Assembly (NCBI GenBank): GCA_003971905.1 | Contig: RSEE01000027.1 | Location: forward strand, 186,001 to 250,000 | Direction of reading: 5' to 3' | DNA length: 64,000 nucleotides | Source of the DNA: Moniliella sp. 'wahieum' | Taxonomy: Eukaryota; Basidiomycota; Moniliellomycetes; Moniliellales; Moniliellaceae | Shown here: one piece after another, positions 7,895 to 61,656 of the stretch | How the letters are laid out: each line of letters opens with the position of its first letter | Numbering within the stretch: the first letter of the stretch is position 1 | Notes under the pieces: generated by a model | Told to the model about the DNA's origin: nothing | The model's input: the letters and a program-made list of their open reading frames with translations, nothing else | The model's database searches: none | Position numbers and translations under genes: made by a program

Positions 7895-10079
7895 TCACCC
7901 AGGCAGTTCCAGGTCCCCGGCACCTACTTGCGCTTGTTCTTCTTTTTCTTGTTTTGCGCGGCCCCGTGCCACGGGAGAGGGAGCCGTAAGGGGTGGATGT
8001 GGTACTTGGATCCCCTCCGAAGGCGGTTTGTCCTTGACTTCCGCCTCGTCCGCCTTGGCCGCACTGGTCCCGTTTTCGGGCGCAGAGACCGTTTCAGCCG
8101 GAGCGGACACATTGTCCGTGCCTGCCGCGGGAACAGACAAGGGGGCATCCCGTTCCTCCTCCGGCTTCGCTTCCGGCTTCTTCGCTTCCGGCTCCGACTG
8201 AGGCGAAGGCGTAACCACCTTTGTGTCGACAGCCTCTACCGCTGTAGCCGGGACTGACACCTGGCCTTCAGGGGACAGTGCCTCCACCGCCTCAGCCACT
8301 GGCTCTTCCGTTACTGTCTCCTTGGCTGTCGAATTTGCCTCCGCCTCCGTCTCAGCCGGAACAGCCAGAATTGGAGTTGCGGCTGGTGCAGGAGTCGGCG
8401 CGGGAGCCTGCGATGAGGCGCGAGCCGGAGCTGGAGGTGAAGTAGGGAGGCTGGGACGCTTTTCTGAAGCCGAGGTGGAAACACGACGAATGGTTCCGTC
8501 GCCAGGCACGGTGAGCAGGTCGCCCGTGCTGATGGCCGAGTTGGAGCGGGACCGTGAGTTGGGCAGTGGCTCTTGCTCCGGGGTCCAGGTGGCAGTGCGC
8601 TTGATCTGCACGCGGCGGAGCGGGGCATTGGCAAGGGAAGAAAGCGTGCCATACGTGGTGCCGGAGTACCTGTGCCAGTCTGGTCGTTCAAGGGGGTGAG
8701 AGGACTGGATGCCTTGCCCCCGATTGGGCGGGGGAAGGGAGCCCAAATGTGCTCCGGCGGGCGGGGATGCGCTTGTTGCGGCGGCGCTCGATAATGCCCC
8801 GCACCAAAGGTGCCATGCGCCTTGTTTGGCGGCGGCAGAAGCAGTGGGGTTGAGAACGGGTGACCTTGACCTTATTGTGCACATCGAGATAGACGTCAAA
8901 CTCATCCACGATCTCGCGTCCAATCATCTCCTCAATCACGTCTTCAAGCGTCACCACGCCCAACGCACCGCGGGGCTCGCCAGGGTAGTCCGAGACAAGT
9001 AGCATGTGCGACCGGCCCTGCTGAAAGTAGTTGAGACAATCAAACAGGGTGAGCTCGGGGAGCTTCGGGCAACGCAGCAAGCTGGAAGCGGGAAACTTGC
9101 TCGGCGTCCTCGGGGTCGTACGAGATGAGGTTCTTGACGAGGAGCATGCCCAACACGGCGTCCGGCTTGCCTGGTTCATGTACGGGGATGCGCGAGTAGC
9201 CGTGGTGAACCAACGTTGCCACTCCAGCCTCGTCCAAGACCGCATCTGACGGCAGCGTAAACACATCCTCGATCGGCGTCATAATGTCCTTGACTGTCTT
9301 GTCGTTCAGGTCGAGCACGGCTCGAATGATGGTCACCTCATCGTTGGTCAACGTTTCTTCACCCAGCGCCTGGTGCAACGAAACAAAGGTCTTGAGTTCG
9401 GCCTTGCGATAAACAGTACCATGTTCTTCGCCCAGGCACCAGTCGAGCAGTTTCGCCGTCGGCCAGGCAATGGGCGCGAGAGAATCATGACATGCATGCA
9501 CCATGGTGCACAGTACGCGCCATCGCCAGACCATACCGGGCACAGATGGCCTGTGGGACGATTTCACCAAAGATGACAATGAGCAGGGTCGATGTCAACA
9601 CGGCACTCAGACCACCGCCGAAATCAGAGAGAAAGACGGGCAGCGTTTCATTCACGATTACGTTACCCAAGAGGAGAACGACGAGGACCCAGTGCCGGCC
9701 CTTTCGAGCAGATTGAGCACGACGCGCGCCTCGCGCTGCTCCGACTCGGTGCCACTTGTACTGAGGACTTGAAGGTTGACCATATCCAGCCCCATGAGCC
9801 CCAGGGTTAAGCCGGCAAAGACACCGCCGAGAAGGACAAGACCTGCGATGCTGAGCAGGCTCATGATCAGCTGGGCGTCGGTACGGGGTGGGGCAGGCGC
9901 AGCGCCGCCATGGCCGAGACTGGAGACGGGGGCGGCAAGGAACGGCAGAGGGAGGGCAGCGATGGGGCGGGCGGCGAGGAGGAGGAGAGGAGGCCGTGGA
10001 CGAGGCGGGTGCGGGTGCTGAGGGCGTAGGCGGGGCCCAGGCCGCGGCCCAGCTGGGCGGTGGGGGGGGGCGGGGGCAT
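7895..10079 (-). CDS. MAM3: CNNM/MAM3-type DUF21-CBS divalent-metal homeostasis membrane protein, frame-broken
   Basis: Predicted vacuolar or plasma-membrane Mg2+/metal homeostasis protein of the cyclin M family. ATG 10079 opens a Pro-rich leader. The DUF21 membrane domain follows: [78 protein letters not shown]. Then come [20 protein letters not shown] and the paired CBS domains ([57 protein letters not shown]). The tail at 8900-7895 is long, disordered and Ala/Pro/Glu/Thr-rich, ending [19 protein letters not shown]. Frame changes fall near 9900, 9710, 9530, 9080 and 8850. All signature segments are present, so the protein is probably intact in the organism. Confidence 0.9.
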
Positions 10080-11115
10080 GCGAGGGGGGTGGCGGGGGGT
10101 GGGGGCGAAGACGCAACGGGCGGTCGGATGTTATTTCTTGCCACTCGCCTCTCGCCTCTTCCGGCCTCGTCCGCCCGATTCAGCGGCAGAGGGCAGCAGC
10201 AAGCGGCAGACGCACGGGGCAACATCCAAGCGTAAGAAAATGCTTGAAGCTTGAAGCCTGACACAAAGCATAATTGGCCTCACGCCGCAGGCCGCACACG
10301 CCCACAAGAGACGGGTGCTAGGGTTGTCCATGCGCTCGTGTCACCACATGTCAACACGCGCTCAACGCACCCTGTCCGCCCATACTTGGCATACCCATTG
10401 GCCAACACCCCGCCACAGCGTCTCCATGCTCAACTAACACCGCGCACCGGCTTCCCTCGCACGCTCCGCCGGCCCCTTTCCCCCATGTGCAGACGGGAAC
10501 AGCCAGCGCGCCCACGCGAGCGCTTCCGCCGTGCCCTCAAGCATTTGAGGTGGTGTTGGGACACTAGTGCGGTGTGCCAAAGGCATAGCCGGACTCTGGC
10601 GCTCCCAGCCACTTCAATCCAGCGGCTAGCTCCGCTAGTTCCGCTCGGGCGGACATGTGGCTGGCTGACTGGCCTCCTATCTAGCAGCCCCGGCAGTCGT
10701 AGCTCTTAGTTTTCCCTCTTCCACTCCCTCCTCCTCCTCCCTCTCCGCTACTCTCTACTATCGCTCACCAGCAATCAATCCCTATCGTCTATGGCCCAGT
10801 TCTTGATTGCTGTCTCGCTTGGCATCGGGATCCGGTCACATCAGTGGCTCGACTTCTGCATCCGCAAGCTTCGCTAAGATAATCGTAATCGATAGCAATC
10901 GATCGGAGAGGCCGATCCCATCTTTTTTTGATGCTCGGCAGCTGGCACACCCTCCGATGACTCCGAGTATCTCCTCCGAGTATCTCCGGACGCGCTGCTG
11001 CCATTAATCAGCATTTGTCCACGCCAAGCCAACCCGCTTGAAGCCTCTCCTCACGCCACCGTCCATCCTTCTTGCCGCCGCTCTAGGCCTCCCCCTCCTG
11101 TCTTCCAGTCCTCCC
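10080..11115. promoter_or_regulatory. Divergent intergenic region between CNNM and GNAT genes
   Basis: About 1 kb between two divergent starts, so it should carry both promoters. It holds a TAGGGTT heptamer (10319-10325) and, just beyond it, CACATGTCA (10345-10353). Both occur upstream of other genes in the window. A pyrimidine-rich stretch lies at about 10705-10770. No coding signal seen. Confidence 0.4.
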
Positions 11116-12168: not shown

Positions 12169-14524
12169 GCCCTCTTCTCTCCGCGCTCCGTTCGTCGCGA
12201 TAATGGTGCCTGCCCCGGCAGCCCAGCGCTCGCGCACGCCTCCGGGTCCATTTCCCGAACCAAAGCGACCTCAGCCCCGTCGGCAGTCAGCACAACACTT
12301 CCCCCCCGGCTAGCGCCGCCGACCAGTTTTTCACCTGCCTCGATGCCGTTCGTAAAGCAGTCTATGCCCAGGAAGAGAGGAGACATGCCGCTTCCCAAGG
12401 AGCGGGAAACGATGGTGCCCCGGCCACGGTGGACGGAGGAACGATGGCGCAGGTGGATGATACTTTCTACCACGCCACTATCGCTTTCAATCGATTTCAT
12501 TCCCTCCTTTCCCTGTGCACGACAGAAGGGGAACGGAGTTTGATGACCCTGCACGATCCCGCAGTTCTTCCTCGCTAGCAAGTGGGACCAGTTTGGATCA
12601 AGAGCTGTGGGAAGGAGGACACCTGGGTCCCTCTAGCCCACAGGATGTGCCCCGACGTGGTCGGCAAGCGCTGCTTTTACGTGCCGAGCAACTTACAGCG
12701 GTTTGGGGCGAGGTGCAGGAAGAAGTAGACCTCCTCCGGCGCGAAGTGGTGGAGGACAAGCAGATGCATGTGTTTGCTTCGGTGGTGGGGCAGGCGAATG
12801 AGCTAATGGACTCGCTTCAGCGCGCGCTGGATGCACAACAGGACGTGGTTCATCAATGGAGCCAAGTTGAGACATCTGTTTCGGCCGTGCTGGGACCGCC
12901 CCTGCCCCGTGGAAGCCCCCAACCCACGCAGACCCATTGGATGCTCAAGTCAACCGTGGAGGAGGTCGAGAAAGGATTCACCGCCGTCGAAGCGTTTGGC
13001 TCACAACTTCAAAACACGGGGAAAAAGACTGAGATCAAAGTGGGATATTACGTGCCTAGTGTGGAGCGGGCGTTTGCTGGGTTGGGTGCCATGCTCCATT
13101 CCCGCACTACGTTGCACGGTGGAGAGGAGCGGATGCGCCAGCAAGCTGTCACACGTTGGGATCGGCTCACGGAAGCCTCGGCAGCCCGGAGCAAGGAGAG
13201 CAGAAGGTGCAAGGCACAGCAAGAAAAGGTTCTGCTTCTGCTGGCAAAGGAACTCCTGACATATAACGATGCAGATCCTACTCTGGTACAGTCCGCCCTC
13301 GCCCTTGTTCTCGCCGCCAATGCCGTCGGGGAGAGCAAGCGGAGCAACGAGCACCCATCCCCCCCAAATGGTACTACTACCCCACCGGGACCAAAAAGAA
13401 GATACCATCATCTTCGTCTTCTTCCTTGTCTCGCCTATCTCGATCACGCCCCCCCGTGAGCTTGGGCAAATGGACGCCTTCCCCTTCGCCCTCGGCAACC
13501 AGCCGGCAGCGCATGTCACACCAGGTTTCAACAGCGCTAACTCACCCACTGAGCACCGTGCCATCCGCCTCCACCCCTGCCGCCGAGGGCCCGACCAGCA
13601 CACCGCCCTCTCCCCTATCGGGTTCTGCTCGGGGAAGAAAGCGGATGCGCGTCTGTTGCGCCCGTCTGTTCGGGGCTCCGAAGGCTCTGCCCGATCCACG
13701 AAAGGAGTGCCCTTTCCTGCGCAGACCATATCCAGCTCCTGCCTCCAAGACCTGCCAGGTCCATTGTTCCCCACATCCCGCTCGGTGGGCAAGCTGGACA
13801 GCACCCACTCCCTTTATGATTCCTCGGCGTCGCCTTTCTCTTCTCCAAGTGTGACCAGTGCAAGTGGCGCCAGTGGCAGCGGCACCACCACCACCGCTAC
13901 CTCTGCCTCCTTTTCCACTCTCCCCACCCCCCGTCGACGCGGCGCGACAGGTGCTCGAACGGCGTCATGCGCCTCCGTTGGCTCGAGTACGAGCACCGTT
14001 GCTCCTACCCCCCCCAGTCGCCCGCGACGAGGGTGGAGACGGTGCGTGGCCCAACGCCCGATGCGGGCGTGGTGCAGCGTGCCCGCCGCTTAGGTGCGTT
14101 TGGCCCGGTGTCATCCCGCCCGGCGTCCCGATCGGACCCCCGAGTGCGAACCCCAAGTTTTTCCCGTGCCTCGTCCCGCGCTTCGGCCCGAGAGACAGTT
14201 TACGGCGAAAGCTCGGGGGGGCACTACCGGCCGAACAGGTTGGATGCTCTGGACGTTGCGGTGGCCAGGGTGGCCAATACGTTAGGAGTCAGCATTGGCC
14301 GTCTTGAGCCTCCCCTGTCGCCGGGGCAACGGTTGGACTTGAGCCCTGGGAAAGAGCTGCAGGGCCGGTACGTACTGGCGGGGCTTCCGGTCAGTTGCAA
14401 GGTCCTCCAGCTCCACCGAGGCCGGCAGGATGGGAAGGCGAAGACGGTGTGCAAAGTCATGGTCCGCTCGGAGGGGATGTGGCAGGACCTCGAGACCTGG
14501 CTCTTGAACCACATTGAGCGTTGA
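12169..14524 (+). CDS. GAS2/GAR-domain cytoskeletal protein with helical N-terminus (Kar9-like candidate), frame-broken
   Basis: The C-terminus is a clear GAS2-related (GAR) domain, a microtubule-binding fold: RLDALDVAVARVANTLGVSI, LEPPLSPGQRLDLSPGKELQ, GRYVLAGLPVSCKVLQLHR, AKTVCKVMVRSEGMWQDLET, WLLNHIER, stop at 14522. The N-terminal half is helical (FTCLDAVRKAVYAQEERRHA, QLTAVWGEVQEEVDLLRREV, VVGQANELMDSLQRALDAQ, VEEVEKGFTAVEAFGSQL, VPSVERAFAGLGAMLHSRT). The middle, 13400-14200, is Ser/Pro/Thr-rich and basic. I infer a microtubule-cortex linker. Fungal Kar9-type proteins have a comparable helical N-terminus and disordered middle, but I cannot confirm that domain. Start is uncertain; ATG 12169 is the first suitable one. 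Frame changes occur near 12300, 12530, 13400 and 13960. Confidence 0.7.
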
Positions 14525-15982: not shown

Positions 15983-16968
15983 GGCGGACTGGGGGGCGGG
16001 GTCAGGAGGGGAGGAGGCAGACGAGGGCAGGCAGGAGGGGCAGGGCGTACGCAAGCGAAGGGCGGGGAGGAGAGAGCGGAGGCGGGTGTGGAGGTGGAGG
16101 TGGAGGGGGAGAGAACAGAGGGGAGGTGTTATCGGGGCTGCTGAGCGGGGGGCGGGGCGCTGGTTTGAGGGGCCAGGCGACCTGCCTGTCTGGGCCACAG
16201 CCGGCCGGCTGAGGCAGAGCCTGCGACTGGGTTGGTGAGTTGCCTGGGCGGAGGCCGCGTCAGCGCGCCAGCCTCAGCGCCGACGCCACACATTAGGTCA
16301 GCACCCCTCACTTGTTACTCGCCGGCTGTTCCTGAGCCCCGCAGCACGGCGCCAGTGTGTCTCCTTCATGTCCCACATGACATCATCGCCATGGCGATCT
16401 TCCGTCTTCGCCATCATTCGTCAGCGTCATGCATCATTCACGCACGCCTGGCCTCCGCGCCTTGCGCTGGCCTCCGAGTGCCTCCCCACGGCTTCAGCCA
16501 TCCACTCCTCGATCCTCAATCACCGATCCCCTCGTTCAGCCACTCGGTCCTTTCAGTCGGCGGACTCAGATCCTCAGAATGCACTCCATTCTGAACTCGG
16601 TCTGAGTCTTGAACATTCCACCGCTTTTCTCCGCAGCTTGACGGCACTATACTGCCTTGGCCAGTTTCGGCCACTTTTTCGACAGGCTTCGGCCGTTGCT
16701 TCGAGACCATTCAGGTGGTGCGCCCTCTTACTTGATCTTGTGCGCCTTTTGGACAACTCATGTCCGACATCGGTGTTCAACCCATGCATTGCCATGCTGC
16801 GCATGCTATGGGCCCTACCATAGTGGCAATAGCTACTCTGCATAGATCAATCGCATCTCAGGTCTCTCACGCCCATCTCCTCTAGGAGCCCCCCGGCGAT
16901 ATAGAGACTATTAAGCGCTAAACATTTGGCAGCAGGCCATGGCTCGAATCAGTAGTTACTCAGTTGCC
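15983..16968. other. Intergenic upstream of AN1/UBL gene
   Basis: Promoter of the minus-strand AN1/UBL gene and 3' flank of xylulokinase. A 151-codon frame at 16368-16823 (plus) lacks motifs and the GC-rich third positions of neighbouring genes. I treat it as non-coding. Confidence 0.35.
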
Positions 16969-18439
16969 TCAATAGTTGTCGGCAACCCGAGGGTACACCC
17001 TACTCTGGGCCGCCTTGTACTGCTCCCGCACCACCGGCGACGCCACCGGCTGGAGTATAGTGTCTGTTGGGGTCACCCACTTGGGCTGCGAGCCCAACAG
17101 AACCCAAGCCGCCTGCACTGCACCTCCACGGGCCACATACTCCCCTGGGGTAGGCACCTGGATCGGAGCGTCAAACACGTGACGCGCCACCTGCTGCACG
17201 GCCTTGTTCGACGCCGCTCCACCAATCAGGACCATACGACGTGCCTCGACGCCTTCTTTGATCAGCGCCGCCACGCCGTCCTGCAGCGAACAGAGTAGAC
17301 CCTCGACGTAGGCCCGGGCCAGGTTGGCGCGCGTACAGTTGGTTTGAGTCATCCCCATCAAAGAGGCGGTAGCGTCTGGCAAGTTCGGCGTCCGCTCTCC
17401 GACAAAATAAGGGATAAGTGTCAGTCCCGCCGCGCCCGGGGGCGCTTGCAAGGCGAGATGGGCCAGTTGCTCCACATCCACGCCCAGGAGCTCACACCCA
17501 GCTCGCAAGATCAAGGCGCCATTCAACGTGCAGACCAAGGGAGCACTCGTCCGTCTGCAGCACAGAACCCAGCAACGGTGCCGGTGGCATCAGACGGAAC
17601 CTGATCGGTGGGCGCAAAGACTGCGCCGCTCGTCCCGATCGACACCACCACGTCGCCCGGCTGCACGCCCAGACCCAATGCGCCGCCCGCATTGTCCCCC
17701 GCACCTGGACCGACCAGGATGCCATCCACTGTTTCTCCAGCCCGCTCATTCGGCGCCAAGACGCGCGGCAAGATAACATGATTGTTCTCTTGGGGGGAGC
17801 CGGCTTGCCTCGCTTTCCGGCCAAAGGCCAGCTCAAACAGGTCAAAATCGTACTGTCCTGTGTGGGAGGACCAGTATGCCGTCCCGCTCACGTCCGACCG
17901 GTCTGTGACAAGCTTCTCGAGATCCGGTCCACGAGGCGCATCGGCACGGCCTTGGGGACCGTAGCCCATCAGCCGCCAGGTAAGCCAATCGTGTGGCAGG
18001 GCAATCGCCGCAACACGCCGCGCATTGTCTGGCTCTGCATCGCGCAGCCAACGCACCTTGGACGCAGTGAAGCTTGCCACCGGCACTAGCCCCGTTCGCG
18101 CCGCATACTTCTCCGCCCCCCCCACTTCGGCAATCAGCGTGCGCGCTGCACCGGCGGAGCGGGTATCGTTCCAAAGCAATGCTTTCCGCACTACCTTACC
18201 GTCTTTATCAAGGGCCACCATGCCATGCTGCTGCCCGGCAATCGAGATGGCCTTGACGTCGGCAAGCCCGCCGGCTTGCTTGATGGCCAGGTGAAGCGCC
18301 TCCCACCAGGCTTCGGGATCGACCTCCGTCCCGCCCGGATGAGATGCGCGACCTTCTCGACAGGAGTGCCCGTATGGGCATCAAGAATGACTACCTTGCA
18401 CCCCTGGGTTGAGGAATCGACTCCTGCGACGAGCGGCAT
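16969..18439 (-). CDS. xylB: Bacterial-type xylulokinase (FGGY family), probable horizontal acquisition
   Basis: Phosphorylates D-xylulose to xylulose-5-phosphate, feeding the pentose phosphate pathway. ATG 18439 gives [20 protein letters not shown] (first phosphate-binding motif). Then come [66 protein letters not shown] (substrate site), [34 protein letters not shown] (catalytic Asp in GDN), [49 protein letters not shown] (adenosine motif) and [20 protein letters not shown]; stop at 16969. About 485 aa, intronless: the size and wording of actinobacterial XylB, whereas fungal xylulokinases are about 570-620 aa and start with a different motif. Frame changes near 18330, 18220 and 17535 match the window-wide indel rate. 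Composition matches its neighbours. Confidence 0.93.
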
Positions 18440-44100: not shown

Positions 44101-47100
44101 GTCATTGGCACCCAGGGCTCCCAGGGTAACCGACACTCTGATCCAGTTGTTTTCTGCTTTACCGTCTTCATATTTGAAAAATGCCTATCTACCTCTCCCC
44201 AATCAGTCGGAGGGAATGCGAACGCAGCCTGGCTCCCACTCTACTTCGGCGAGAGGGTATGCTGCAGCTCCTGTCCCAACCACGTCGCCCCGTCAACCCA
44301 ATTCTAAGGCGCCCCATGAGGAACAAGGACGGAGACACTATTCAACGCCTTCATTACCGATGGAGGCCACCGGGTCGGCCCTTCCTCCGCCACGCAACTT
44401 GCCTCCCCCACCTGTGACGACGAACGCCTCCTCGCTTTCCATGTTCCTCCGGCGCCGTCGTCATCGACTTCCAACCCACCAACCCTACTCCCCGTCGCCG
44501 ACCCACCACGGCGCCTCCCGCTTACTCCTGATGTTTCTTCTTCTTCCACCAGCTCGTATGCAGTTCATGTGCCCGCTGCGGCCCCGTTCCCCATCAAGCG
44601 AGGGCAGGTGGGCTCGTCCATCTCGTCCGCCTCGGTTTCGGATGAGTCTGACCTGTTCCACGCCGTGTCCGGTCACAGCTCTGTCTCTGATCGCGATAGT
44701 GAGACCAAGCGCAATTCGGGCCCCCTCAGCCCAGCTTCTCCGACGTCGCCGCCGCCTTCCACCACGCCGTTGCGCGTACGAGCATGGCCGCAGCGGCCAA
44801 CACATCCCGTACCACCCGCTCCGCACCAACCAGCCCCTAATCCCTGCCACTTCAGTCCACTCCAATTCCACAACTTCAATATGGCGTGGGGTGTGCGAGA
44901 GCGAGCCTCTCAACGGCGGAGCGAATGTATCACCTGACGCTGCTTTCATGACAGTTGCATCGGATGAGTCAACGTTGACTCTTCGTAACAATCACACCCT
45001 GAACGTATTGGGAGAGGCGACGCGGACCCCGACGGCATCTAGTCCCGCTGGGGGACAGGAGCAGGACCAGCTTCATTCTGTTCGCACTCTGGCTTCCGCT
45101 GGTAGGAAGGAGGAGGTGACCGAAAGAAGGGGGGGGACATGGCCCTTGTCCGATCCCAACTGGAACCCGAATCCAATGTGCCGAACGAGGCGGGCTTGGC
45201 TGTACCTGGTCACGCACTTGCTTCCCAGGAGGAAGACGCTTTCACCATTTACTCCCATCGGACTTGCCTGAACCGAGTGATCCGACGGTATACATGACAG
45301 ATCCGCTCTATGCTTCCCAGGAGGAAGACGCTTTCACCATTTACTCCCAGTCGGACTTGCCTGAACCGAGTGATCCGACGGTACATGGCAGATCCGCTTT
45401 ATGCATCTGTGACAACTCTGTTGAAGGAGACCAGGGCTCATGCCGAGAAGAAGAACTGGACCGGGAACAGATACAGCAGCTCCAAGCGAAAGTGGAGCAA
45501 CAATCTGTTTTCGAGGGGTTGCCCAGGCGTTTGCCTGGTCAGGATGGCCAAGTTGATCAGGACGCCTCTTTGGCACAGGTTCGCGATGCGACCTTGGCCA
45601 AGCCGACTCTGGACGAGCAGAAACATGGACGAATTAGTCAATTGCTTGCGAATCCGGCAGAGGACGCGGATCAATTTACCGTCTATTCTGCCAGCAACTT
45701 GCCTGACGTGAAGCAACACTGCGGTTTGATGATCCGCGGCAAGCTAATGTGCGCCATGTGTTGACGGGAAACTCGGTCGTGGCGACCGAGGCCAAGTCCT
45801 GGTTCCAGATTCGCGTACGATCTCCTCCGGAGCTGATTTGCCTGATGTGAATGACGCAACGGTGCAGGCAAATGACAAGCCGCTACCTGTTTCGAAGCAA
45901 GAGCTCCCCGGGGCAAGCAGCAAATCAATGCCGCCCAAGTCGGAGTCTGCATCGCAAGGATATTGGATGTCCCCGGGCACCTTGGCTAAGGAGTGCCGTC
46001 GCCTACGCAACTTGATCCCTACGTACGAGGACCCAATCCCCACCCCACGCGCGGCGGTGCAACCTGCCAGCATGGTTCAGTCCTCCTCCCCACTCCGTAT
46101 TGATACACGCATTGACACGATCTCAGCCGCCCCAATTTGGCGCCAATTCCGAGTGCCGATGGTGAGTCGAGTCCCACGATAGCCACGAGCTCATCGACAA
46201 GTGCAAACTCTCCCGTGGCGCCAGAGGAGAACTTGCCTCGAATGATTGGGCCATGCGTCCCACGCAGAAAGCCGTCTACAACCACCTCGACGAAATCTTC
46301 CCTGAGCATGACCTGGACAAACCTGTGATTGCACCGCCTCCCGCTTACTCCCCCTTCGGTTGAACCCCCTAGCACCACCGCTAATTCCTCTGCCAACGAC
46401 AAGTTCACTTCCCTCGTGCCCACTAAGTCGCCGAATGCTGCTACTGAATCGGCACGCAAGGCTGCCACTCCGCTCCCTCAGCGTGGAATCTGGGGATGGG
46501 CCAGGGCGACGTCAGGCTCAGGTCCAATGGTCCCAAGGGTCGCGCATCGCTTCGTCCAAGCAAGTCAATCCGTGTTGTGGCCCGGGACCGGTGCGGGACA
46601 TGGACCGTGCTAACCGAGCTGGGCGAAGATGGGGGGCGCCATTATCCGTAGGCAGAGTACCCGGATGTGGGGTGCTCGGACCCGTGAAGTTCGCCCGGGA
46701 GCCTCTTTGCTGAGACCAACGAGACCAGCAAACTGGCCGGGACGAGAAGTTGACCGACGTGCCTACGTTCGTGTGGGCCAAAGGTGGCTTGATTGGCTCC
46801 GGCAGCTTCGGCAAGGTATATCGCAATGAACGTGACGACGGGCGATTGTTGGCGGTGAAGCAAGTCGAGCTTCCATCGACCCGTCAGACTTGGCAAAGCC
46901 CGATAGCAAAAACGTGGTCAATTCCCTCGAGTCGGAGATTAACGCTCAAGGTGTTGGAACACCCTAACATCGTGACCTACCTTGGTTTTGAGCGCGCAAA
47001 CGGCTTCCTCTCAATTTTCCTCGAATACGTGCCCGGCGGGTCGATTGGTTCATGCTTGCGCAGCCATGGCATGTTGGAGGAACCAACTGTTGCTTACTTT

Positions 47101-47808
47101 ACACATCAGATCCTTGATGGGCTCAAATATCTTCACCAAAACGGTCTCATTCATCGCGACATCAAAGCTGACAATATCCTGGTCGACTATGACGGCATTT
47201 GCAAAATTTCTGACTTTGGCACAGTTCACCGTTCAAAACGGTGCCGGCAGGTCCTTCAAAGGCACTATCCCCTGGATGGCTCCCGAGGCCCTTCACGTGC
47301 CTCACAAGGGTACTCGGCCAAAGTTGACATATGGAGCCTCGGGTGCGTGGTGCTTGAGATGCTTGCGGGCAAGCGGCCGTGGCCGGATCATGAGATCCTA
47401 CAAGTCATGTTCAGGTACGTTGTTTTCGTTGGGACCTCGTGAACCTCTTGCTGGCGTACGAATGTTTGACTGACGTGATGCATAGGTTGCTCATTCTCAA
47501 TCGCCCCCGCCGGTGCCCGAATGGGTGCAAATGTCCCCGGCGGCCAAGAACTTTTTGGCCAACTGTCATGCATTGATCCGAAACGCGGCCGACGGCAGAG
47601 CAACTTTTGACCCACGTGTTTCCGTACAACATTCCACCGGGTTGGACGTTCCAGTCGAGCAAACTGTATCGAGCGATCATCAACAATCCTTGTCGCAAGT
47701 CGACCCGGCGCAGGCCTGCGCCCCGAGATGCGTTTCCGCCAAGCCATCGGGTCAGCAACGTGAACGCGCGCCTGGCTCAGCAGCTTCCCCCGTCAACGGG
47801 ACAAGTAG
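41136..47808 (+). CDS. BCK1: BCK1-type MAP kinase kinase kinase (cell-wall integrity), frame-broken
   Basis: MAPKKK expected to act below Rho1/Pkc1. ATG 41136 gives MPLSASPGVFAP. A long Ser/Pro-rich N-terminal region is followed by a Ras-association-like fold, IYATTNGENFTVVDITGL to LKLHDYAICPFLV-type text (43135-43260), and GSLKFFVATDAHALLERKTQ. The linker has TIYSQSDLPEPSDPTV repeats (45220-45400), then WAMRPTQKAVYNHLDEIFPE and HDLDKPVIAPPPAY (46243-46340), a Bck1 hallmark. The kinase domain at 46756-47620: FVWAKGGLIGSGSFGKVY, LAVKQVE (catalytic Lys), GFLSIFLEYVPGGSIGSCL, HRDIKADNILVDYDG, KISDFGT, GTIPWMAPEAL, AKVDIWSLGCVVLEMLAGKR. An intron lies at 47415-47485. The end reads HVFPYNIPPGWTFQSSKLYR; stop uncertain, TAG 47806 in one frame. 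Ten or more frame changes. Confidence 0.88.
45220..45403 (+). repeat. Tandem duplication, 2 x about 92 bp, in MAPKKK linker
   Basis: Copy 1 from 45220 and copy 2 from 45312 are nearly identical. Small indels (one G missing in copy 1, one extra TA) suggest a true unit of 93 bp, 31 residues. Each encodes SQEEDAFTIYSQSDLPEPSD plus a tail. Weaker versions follow (FTVYSASNLPDVKQ near 45675; SSGADLPDVNDATVQ near 45830). Confidence 0.75.
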
Positions 47809-60403: not shown

Positions 60404-61321
60404 ATGGGCGCTACTCGTGGTCAGAAGGAGCTTGGTTTGCCAAGCTCAACGAGCTGCTCGAGGCTTACAACTCGATCTTCTTCGTCAATGTCGACAATGT
60501 CGGTCGCAGCAGATGCACCAGATTCGTGCTGCTCTCCGTGGCAAGGCTGTTGTCGATGGGCAAGAACACCATGGCCCGCCGTGCCATTCGCCAGATTCTT
60601 GGCGAGAAGCCGCAGTACGAGAAGATCCTGCCCGCTGTCCGCGGCAACATTGGGTTTGTCTTCACCAACGACGACCTGAAGGAGGTTCGCGACCTGATCC
60701 TGGAGAACCGTGTCGCTGCCCCCGCTCGTGCTGGTGCCTTTGCGCCGCCGATGTGGTTGTCAAGGCTGGCAACACTGGTATGGAGCCCGGCAAGACCTCG
60801 TTCTTCCAGGCGCTTAACATCCCCACCAAGATTGCCCGTGGTACCATTGAGATTGTGTCGGACGTGCGTGTGGTTGAGGGTGGCACGCGTGTCGGCACTT
60901 CGGAGGCGACGCTGCTCAACATGCTTAACATCTCGCCCTTCACGTACGGTATGAGCGTCACCTCGATCTACGACAACGGCAACGTGTTTGACAACTCGGT
61001 GCTCGACGTAAGGAGGAGGACCTCGTTGCCTCGTTCCTGGCTGGTGTGCGCCAGATTGCTTCCATCTCGCTCGATCAACTACCCACCATCGTCTCGGTCC
61101 CACTCGCTGTCACCTACAAGGACCTCATCGCCATTGCTTGGCGACCGACATCGACTTTGAGGGTGCCGCCCAGGCTAAGGAGTACCTGCCAACCCGAGGC
61201 GTTCGCCGTCGCCGCCCCCGTGGCTGCTGCTGGCGGCTGCCGAGGCGGCCCCTGCCGAGGAGAAGAAGGAGGAGGAGGAGGAGGAGTCTGACGACGACAT
61301 GGGCTTTGGTCTGTTGACTAA
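60404..61321 (+). CDS. RPP0: 60S acidic ribosomal protein P0, frame-broken
   Basis: Stalk base protein uL10, binding P1/P2. ATG 60404 gives MGATRGQKE. Frames then alternate through [194 protein letters not shown], and the acidic end [12 protein letters not shown] with TAA at 61319. At least seven frame changes in 918 bp, often next to repeated bases; for example CTTGG stands where GCTTGG is needed near 60428. The protein is essential, so these are almost surely sequencing indels. Confidence 0.95.
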
Positions 61322-61656
61322 ACGCCTATCTTGTGCGGCTGGCTGGTTGTTCCTTGACGAGAAACAGCATTGTTGTGGGAAGCCAGACTGGGTTGTGCCT
61401 TGCTTGGACATGGTGTGGAGGGGCAGGAAATAGGAGCAAGTAGCGGGCAACATGTAATCGGCGCGGTGGATGGCAGACGAATGAAAGTTTGCAGATTGTG
61501 CACGCCCAGGCCGGCGAGGGCAGAGATAGGGCAGACTGAGTGCGCGAGATCGCCGCGTGCTCTTCCGGCCGGGCCCCCGCCTCGCGCTCGCCTCCACCAC
61601 CTCTCTCTTGGCGGAGGCGGTCGTGGCGAACACCAAAAGCCAGGCCAGGCGCGAGC
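61322..61656. other. 3' flank of RPP0 and upstream of last gene
   Basis: Non-coding interval between two same-strand genes; nothing recognised. Confidence 0.4.

Follow-up and report, generated by a model that had tools for sequence, protein, structure and literature searches.

Among anaerobic gut fungi, Piromyces has pentose genes of bacterial type, its xylulokinase being one of them. The xylose isomerase of Piromyces is described in part of one study as grouping with enzymes of Firmicutes and Bacteroides (PMC8551123). A fusion of xylulokinase and epimerase is described for algae in part of another report (PMC1920508). Transfers of genes from bacteria to fungi are reported in Malassezia, which belongs to the Ustilaginomycotina, and the stem 'xylulo' is absent from the main text of that report (PMC4634964). 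In the basidiomycete Rhodosporidium toruloides, according to sections of a further study, the native xylulokinase gene carries no xylose flux under the conditions tested, pentoses go via D-arabitol and D-ribulose kinase, and the fungus no longer grows on the pentoses tested once the putative D-ribulose kinase gene is deleted (PMC10398940). That fungi can carry pentose genes of bacterial type is thus already known; our searches of open-licence PMC papers turned up no account of a basidiomycete with an actinobacterial xylulokinase, and within these papers the case described here is new.

The window, which is the whole stretch of 64,000 nucleotides that was analysed, lies on contig C27 of an assembly of 69.5 Mb in 223 contigs and carries a gene for a predicted xylulokinase of the bacterial XylB type. 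It resembles the Piromyces case in being a bacterial-type pentose gene in a fungus, and differs from it in having a basidiomycete host and a presumed actinobacterial donor, and in that the search for a xylose isomerase of the Arthrobacter type came back empty. The reading that we prefer, with a probability of about 0.82, is that an ancestor of this basidiomycete, which probably belongs to the Ustilaginomycotina, acquired an actinobacterial XylB horizontally, and that purifying selection has since preserved it as the one recognisable xylulokinase of the genome. The enzyme would use ATP to turn D-xylulose into D-xylulose-5-phosphate by means of the conserved catalytic aspartate of the FGGY kinases. 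D-xylulose would be supplied by the fungal reductase and dehydrogenase route, from xylose through xylitol to xylulose, and the product would enter the pentose phosphate pathway. A fungus would then apparently depend on a bacterial enzyme as its sole xylulokinase, and not have it as an accessory copy. This makes it testable why some basidiomycetes leave their own xylulokinase unused and whether the direct route from xylose can be regained with a transferred one, and the gene may supply a bacterial xylulokinase adapted to eukaryotes for xylose engineering.

The gene is on the minus strand, from 18439 to 16969 of the window, and has about 485-490 codons and no visible intron, which agrees with the intronless gene of about 485 amino acids in the sequence-only reading. 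Its open reading frame is split into three pieces, each in another frame. The N-terminal piece (approximately 18350 to 18439) contains the start methionine and the VDSSTQGCK motif and was placed by translation and by alignment to the E. coli and Bifidobacterium chains; taken alone, this short piece has no family match in the NCBIfam profile search. The main piece (approximately 17530 to 18365) contains the rest of FGGY_N, the catalytic aspartate motif and the GTSG motif, and matches TIGR01312 with 225.6 bits and PF00370 (FGGY_N) with 114.5 bits. The C-terminal piece (16969 to 17560, the upper limit being approximate) contains FGGY_C and the stop codon, and matches TIGR01312 with 130.8 bits and PF02782 (FGGY_C) with 72.2 bits, so both FGGY domains are present. 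All four FGGY xylulokinase motifs that had been quoted from the sequence are found in the minus-strand translation. The aspartate of the GDN motif in the main piece is presumably the catalytic one, and the QxHG motif is taken to be the substrate motif of xylulokinase. Both GDN and QQHG have aligned counterparts in the solved structures 2itm and 3i8b, which we take to be the E. coli and Bifidobacterium xylulokinases, respectively.

When the three pieces are joined with X at the breaks, the protein scores 381.9 bits with the TIGR01312 XylB model, which is above the equivalog cut-off of 380.25 bits (NCBIfam) by a narrow margin. The Leifsonia protein P0003 scores 389.2 bits, while P0001 (377.1) and P0060 (366.6), two relatives from assemblies without an organism name, are both just under the cut-off. 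BLAST gives the window gene 564 bits with Leifsonia, 403 with Bifidobacterium, 141 with E. coli and 55.8 (23% identity) with yeast XKS1. Against the PDB, the homologue P0001 matches 3i8b with an E value of 2.6e-129, 2itm with 5.5e-40 and human XYLB (4bc2) with 1.7e-10. The difference between 564 and 55.8 bits argues that the window gene is not an XKS1-type enzyme, and the eukaryotic XKS1/XYLB type was rejected because the scores are far nearer to bacterial XylB. The eukaryotic xylulokinases, which belong to the same FGGY superfamily and probably share the reaction, form another subfamily, of which no gene was found in the genome. The actinobacterial XylB proteins of Leifsonia, Agromyces and Brevibacterium (TIGR01312) share with the window gene the length, both FGGY domains and all the motifs, Leifsonia being 64% identical. 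The gene is by its sequence an actinobacterial-type XylB, as had been proposed, an assignment carried by the TIGR01312 score, the Leifsonia identity and the position within Actinomycetota in the rooted tree described below; its catalytic activity and its D-xylulose substrate are predicted. It differs from its actinobacterial counterparts in residing in a fungal chromosome, in a genome without a match to Arthrobacter-type xylA, and in belonging to a supported clade separate from named actinobacterial XylB.

In the protein search, the nearest relatives are P0001 (74% identical) and P0002 (73%), followed by Leifsonia (64%) and other Actinomycetota, and no fungal name occurs among the best 120 of 8000 rows. 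A second search, made with an alignment of six relatives judged to be near the clade of the window gene (P0001, P0002, P0029, P0060, P0070 and P0099), adds more unnamed proteins, and again no fungal name is found among the 120 matches listed. Annotated relatives such as Tilletiaria are probably without a close XylB copy, to judge from these rows, since Ustilaginomycotina records are present in the database and none is listed. In the scan of prokaryote genomes, the best 80 of at least 594 loci are at most 65% identical to P0001, and all are Actinomycetota by title, except for one Sporosarcina record placed among Arthrobacter. Over all comparisons, no named bacterial sequence among the matches listed exceeds about 68% identity to P0001. 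A viral vector was considered and rejected, as no relatives were found in the viral contigs searched.

The main tree has 55 rows and is rooted with E. coli, whose branch is very long, and its bootstrap had not settled; support is given as bootstrap/SH-aLRT. The window gene groups with P0001 and P0002 (100/99) within a clade of 13 rows (100/99), several members of which have an unusual composition. This clade joins Brevibacterium, P0064 and P0120 in a set of 16 rows (99/95), and bootstrap values are no higher than 80-87 at the forks by which this set falls inside the Actinomycetota and not beside them. The grouping is repeated in a tree of 109 rows without the E. coli outgroup, with SH-aLRT values of 99 for the clade and 92 for its join with Brevibacterium. 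In an early tree of 121 rows, which had fewer rows of the clade and a midpoint root, P0029, P0060, P0070 and P0099 fall outside the group of the window gene. The sequence-only reading had named a position inside the fungal xylulokinases as the finding that would speak against it; the BLAST scores of Leifsonia and yeast XKS1 point away from such a position, and a 14-row tree with the yeast sequence, whose branch is very long, leaves nine of its 11 inner branches open. The best reading of the window gene is horizontal acquisition from an actinobacterium, and the transfer claimed earlier is upheld by the rooted tree together with the fungal chromosomal context. The donor and the direction of transfer in detail are inferred. 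That the transfer is old, which had also been claimed, is likely, the nearest relatives being only 73-74% identical.

The other 12 members of the 13-row clade are assembly proteins without an organism name (marked lgn or ena, which we take to stand for Logan and ENA assemblies), and they could include uncultured bacteria, in which case the donor and the age of the transfer would change. The whole clade might even be a bacterial lineage, with only the window branch, or the window gene with P0001 and P0002, being fungal, so that a younger transfer came from that lineage. This is consistent with the 12 members having neither a name nor a known host, but genomes of the Brevibacterium order, of which 241 out of 396 match P0060 at E ≤ 1e-120, reach at most 61% identity among the matches listed, against 69% between P0060 and its clade mate P0121, and many Leifsonia-type relatives in those lists carry NCBI names. 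As far as this order and these lists go, a bacterial clade is unlikely, although it keeps some weight. A further reading, also short of an even chance, is put forward tentatively: one ancient transfer from Actinomycetota may have founded a eukaryotic XylB lineage, represented by the 13-row clade, across several deeply separated and mostly unsequenced fungi, displaced the eukaryotic xylulokinase and re-opened the direct xylulose route, for which basidiomycetes like R. toruloides use a bypass via D-arabitol.

The chromosomal setting bears on whether the gene belongs to the fungus at all. Positions 1 to 59398 of the window are collinear with contig C5 in four consecutive alignments of 94.7-95.7% identity, interrupted by stretches of 215 and 293 bases, and this block of C5 includes its own xylulokinase copy at 745.4-746.8 kb. 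The C5 block is read as a second haplotype or a homeologue of the window. Other FGGY loci are doubled too, namely glycerol kinase 1 (C94/C2), glycerol kinase 2 (C17/C62) and a pentulose kinase (C119/C31, by eye), which suggests that the assembly comprises two haplotypes or homeologues. Five of the 39 open reading frames scanned in the window have a Pfam match, and all five are fungal or eukaryotic: an AreA GATA-like frame at 30-1172; on the left flank, a frame with a CNNM transmembrane domain at 9487-10264 on the minus strand (PF01595, 54.7 bits) and, at 12515-13456 on the plus strand, a partial match to KAR9, a yeast cortical protein according to Pfam (PF08580, 31.7 bits against a cut-off of 24.3, covering 67 of 683 profile positions); on the right flank, a protein kinase at 46750-47439 on the plus strand (PF00069, 154.1 bits) and the ribosomal P0 gene (RPP0), whose frames are broken, at 60404-61322 on the plus strand with limits set by eye (P0 insert domain PF17777, 70.4 bits at 60417-61157). 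The description of the flanks as clearly eukaryotic therefore holds for these five frames, and the nearest neighbours of the xylulokinase gene are not among them.

The C5 copy of RPP0 (L095:3011, residues 1-202) is 82% identical to that of Tilletiaria anomala. The first eight named fungal rows of the RPP0 search are Tilletiaria, Microstroma, Tilletia, Malassezia (twice), Jaminaea, Testicularia and Sympodiomycopsis. Tilletiaria, Jaminaea and Sympodiomycopsis were looked up and belong to the Ustilaginomycotina lineage, to which Microstroma, Tilletia, Malassezia and Testicularia are presumed to belong as well. A quick RPP0 tree places the host among basidiomycetes on a longish branch, without a resolved position. 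The top match of the RPP0 search is a record from the fish Albula goreensis (P0154, on a 47 Mb contig) of 472 amino acids with 62% identity, which was set aside. The host is on this evidence a basidiomycete and probably a member of the Ustilaginomycotina. Allomyces (Blastocladiomycota), suggested at first by the high GC content and the doubled loci, was rejected on the RPP0 matches. Near the C5 copy of RPP0, at L095:1871-2404 on the minus strand, an open reading frame opens with ubiquitin and continues with a basic, ribosomal-like tail (by eye).

That the protein is bacterial in kind and that its nearest named relatives are bacteria might be explained by bacterial contamination or by a chimeric contig join. 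Such an origin is scarcely credible, because two contigs, roughly 95% identical over some 59 kb, carry the gene in a collinear context that is unbroken on C5, because its two copies differ by 22 substitutions, of which 17 are at third positions, and because eukaryotic genes are present on either side. Its composition also speaks against this origin: the gene has a GC content of 63.4% and a GC3 of 68.7%, compared with a GC of 60.5% for the window and a GC3 of 75.2% for RPP0, while five actinobacterial relatives have 71.7-75.1% GC and 84.6-92.2% GC3. The earlier statements that its GC content is like that of the flanking sequence and that contamination is unlikely both stand. The gene, presumed to be horizontally acquired, is resident in the fungal genome, where it is contiguous with fungal genes and has a second syntenic copy.

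The comparison of the two copies is also informative about function. Of their 22 coding substitutions, 18 are synonymous, whereas 10,000 simulations in which these base changes were placed at random have a mean of 6.7 synonymous changes (s.d. 2.1, maximum 15), and none of them reaches 18. The four amino-acid-changing substitutions include two in the last codons, one of which shifts the stop codon. The gene is, as judged from this pattern, under purifying selection. Seven indel events fall in the coding part (about 4.8 per kb), none of which is a multiple of three; two of them are missing bases in the window and five are missing bases in C5. C5 reads through the two breaks of the window, and the window reads through the five breaks of C5, so that none of the seven indel events is a disabling change common to both copies. 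Over the 15.2 kb that hold the gene and its surroundings, non-coding DNA among them, the copies differ by 191 indel events (12.6 per kb), and the frames of RPP0 and glycerol kinase are broken as well. Since each copy is intact at the breaks of the other and housekeeping genes are broken too, the breaks are best read as assembly errors, frame breaks being a feature of the assembly as a whole.

A decayed transferred gene that is no longer in use would also have broken frames, as both copies do, with no one intact version common to them. A pseudogene is nevertheless very improbable in view of the complementary breaks, the 18 synonymous changes among 22, the broken frames of RPP0 and glycerol kinase, and an indel rate in the gene below that of the region, the latter including non-coding DNA. 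A gene that is probably functional, as had been supposed, is in keeping with the preferred reading. The gene itself diverges by only 1.0-1.8% per 500-base bin between the copies. Downstream of it, positions 16000-16968 of the window are the most divergent part compared: substitutions amount to 6.0-6.4% in each 500-base bin, and gaps are numerous.

The genome was searched for other enzymes that could phosphorylate xylulose. A profile search gives 13 FGGY_N and 16 FGGY_C matches, which are assigned to a pair of glycerol kinases, a pair of YDR109C-type pentulose kinases, fragments of glycerol kinase and this XylB. With P0001 as query, only the C27 and C5 copies are found in the genome, in addition to a weak match to a glycerol kinase. 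The N-terminus of human XYLB gives no candidates, and yeast XKS1 gives two, neither at E ≤ 1. In control comparisons, the N-termini of the human and yeast xylulokinases are 45% identical (E 4e-33), the two Pfam FGGY models give yeast XKS1 77.7 and 52.3 bits, and neither of them picks up the N-terminal fragment of the human protein when it is run by itself. As FGGY_N misses this human fragment, short XKS1 exons could escape the family search, which ran exon by exon in an error-rich assembly of 223 contigs. The case for the absence of a native XKS1 from the doubled genome is strong but not final.

Each of the other FGGY loci was considered as a native xylulokinase and rejected. The loci C94/C2 and C17/C62 encode glycerol kinases; C144 and C119 are YDR109C-type pentulose kinases, C31 being a second copy of C119 (by eye) and C140 being counted, by no more than its family hit, as a copy of C144. 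C16 and C4 carry glycerol-kinase fragments, and C161 is taken as another, its match being identical to that of C4. The best reading is that the genome has no recognisable xylulokinase other than this XylB. It had been left open earlier whether the transfer gave or replaced xylulose phosphorylation; replacement is the likelier of the two, as family and protein searches turned up no native gene of the XKS1 type. XylB would have replaced a lost XKS1 rather than filled a gap: a lineage that no longer needed XKS1 may have lost it, and the transferred gene may later have restored the direct route, in this presumed order.

As to the rest of the pathway, XYL2-like dehydrogenases are present: yeast XYL2, which also served as a control for searches of this genome with yeast proteins, has 36 matches, the best three of which are 49-55% identical, within a broad dehydrogenase family. 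A model of Arthrobacter-type XylA, the sole XylA model searched and one that is positive in seven of 14 control genomes, gives no candidates in the genome, and transfer of a whole operon is not supported by this result. The two pentulose kinases score 254.6 and 218.1 bits with TIGR01315 on partial frames, and proteins of this type in the genome are presumably YDR109C-type. Their presence would fit a pathway in which XylB is the only xylulokinase-like gene, but most of the pentose flux passes by way of D-arabitol and D-ribulokinase, leaving XylB a side role or another substrate. The precedent is R. toruloides, whose native xylulokinase carries no xylose flux under the conditions tested and which needs the putative D-ribulose kinase for growth on the pentoses tested, as stated in sections of the study (PMC10398940). 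This division of labour appears improbable, since both the purifying selection and the TIGR01312 score, which exceeds the cut-off for xylulokinases, favour a maintained xylulokinase.

The pentulose kinase loci C144/C140 and C119/C31 (L108, L109, L097 and L110) are candidate D-ribulokinases, and one of them adjoins a decarboxylase-like open reading frame (by eye). Fragments of the glycerol kinase C-terminus are dispersed in the genome apart from the full loci, at 332.4 kb of C16, 6.5 kb of C4 and 42.7 kb of C161 (L111, L112 and L113). The fragment on C4 adjoins an open reading frame that resembles a nucleoside phosphatase (by eye).
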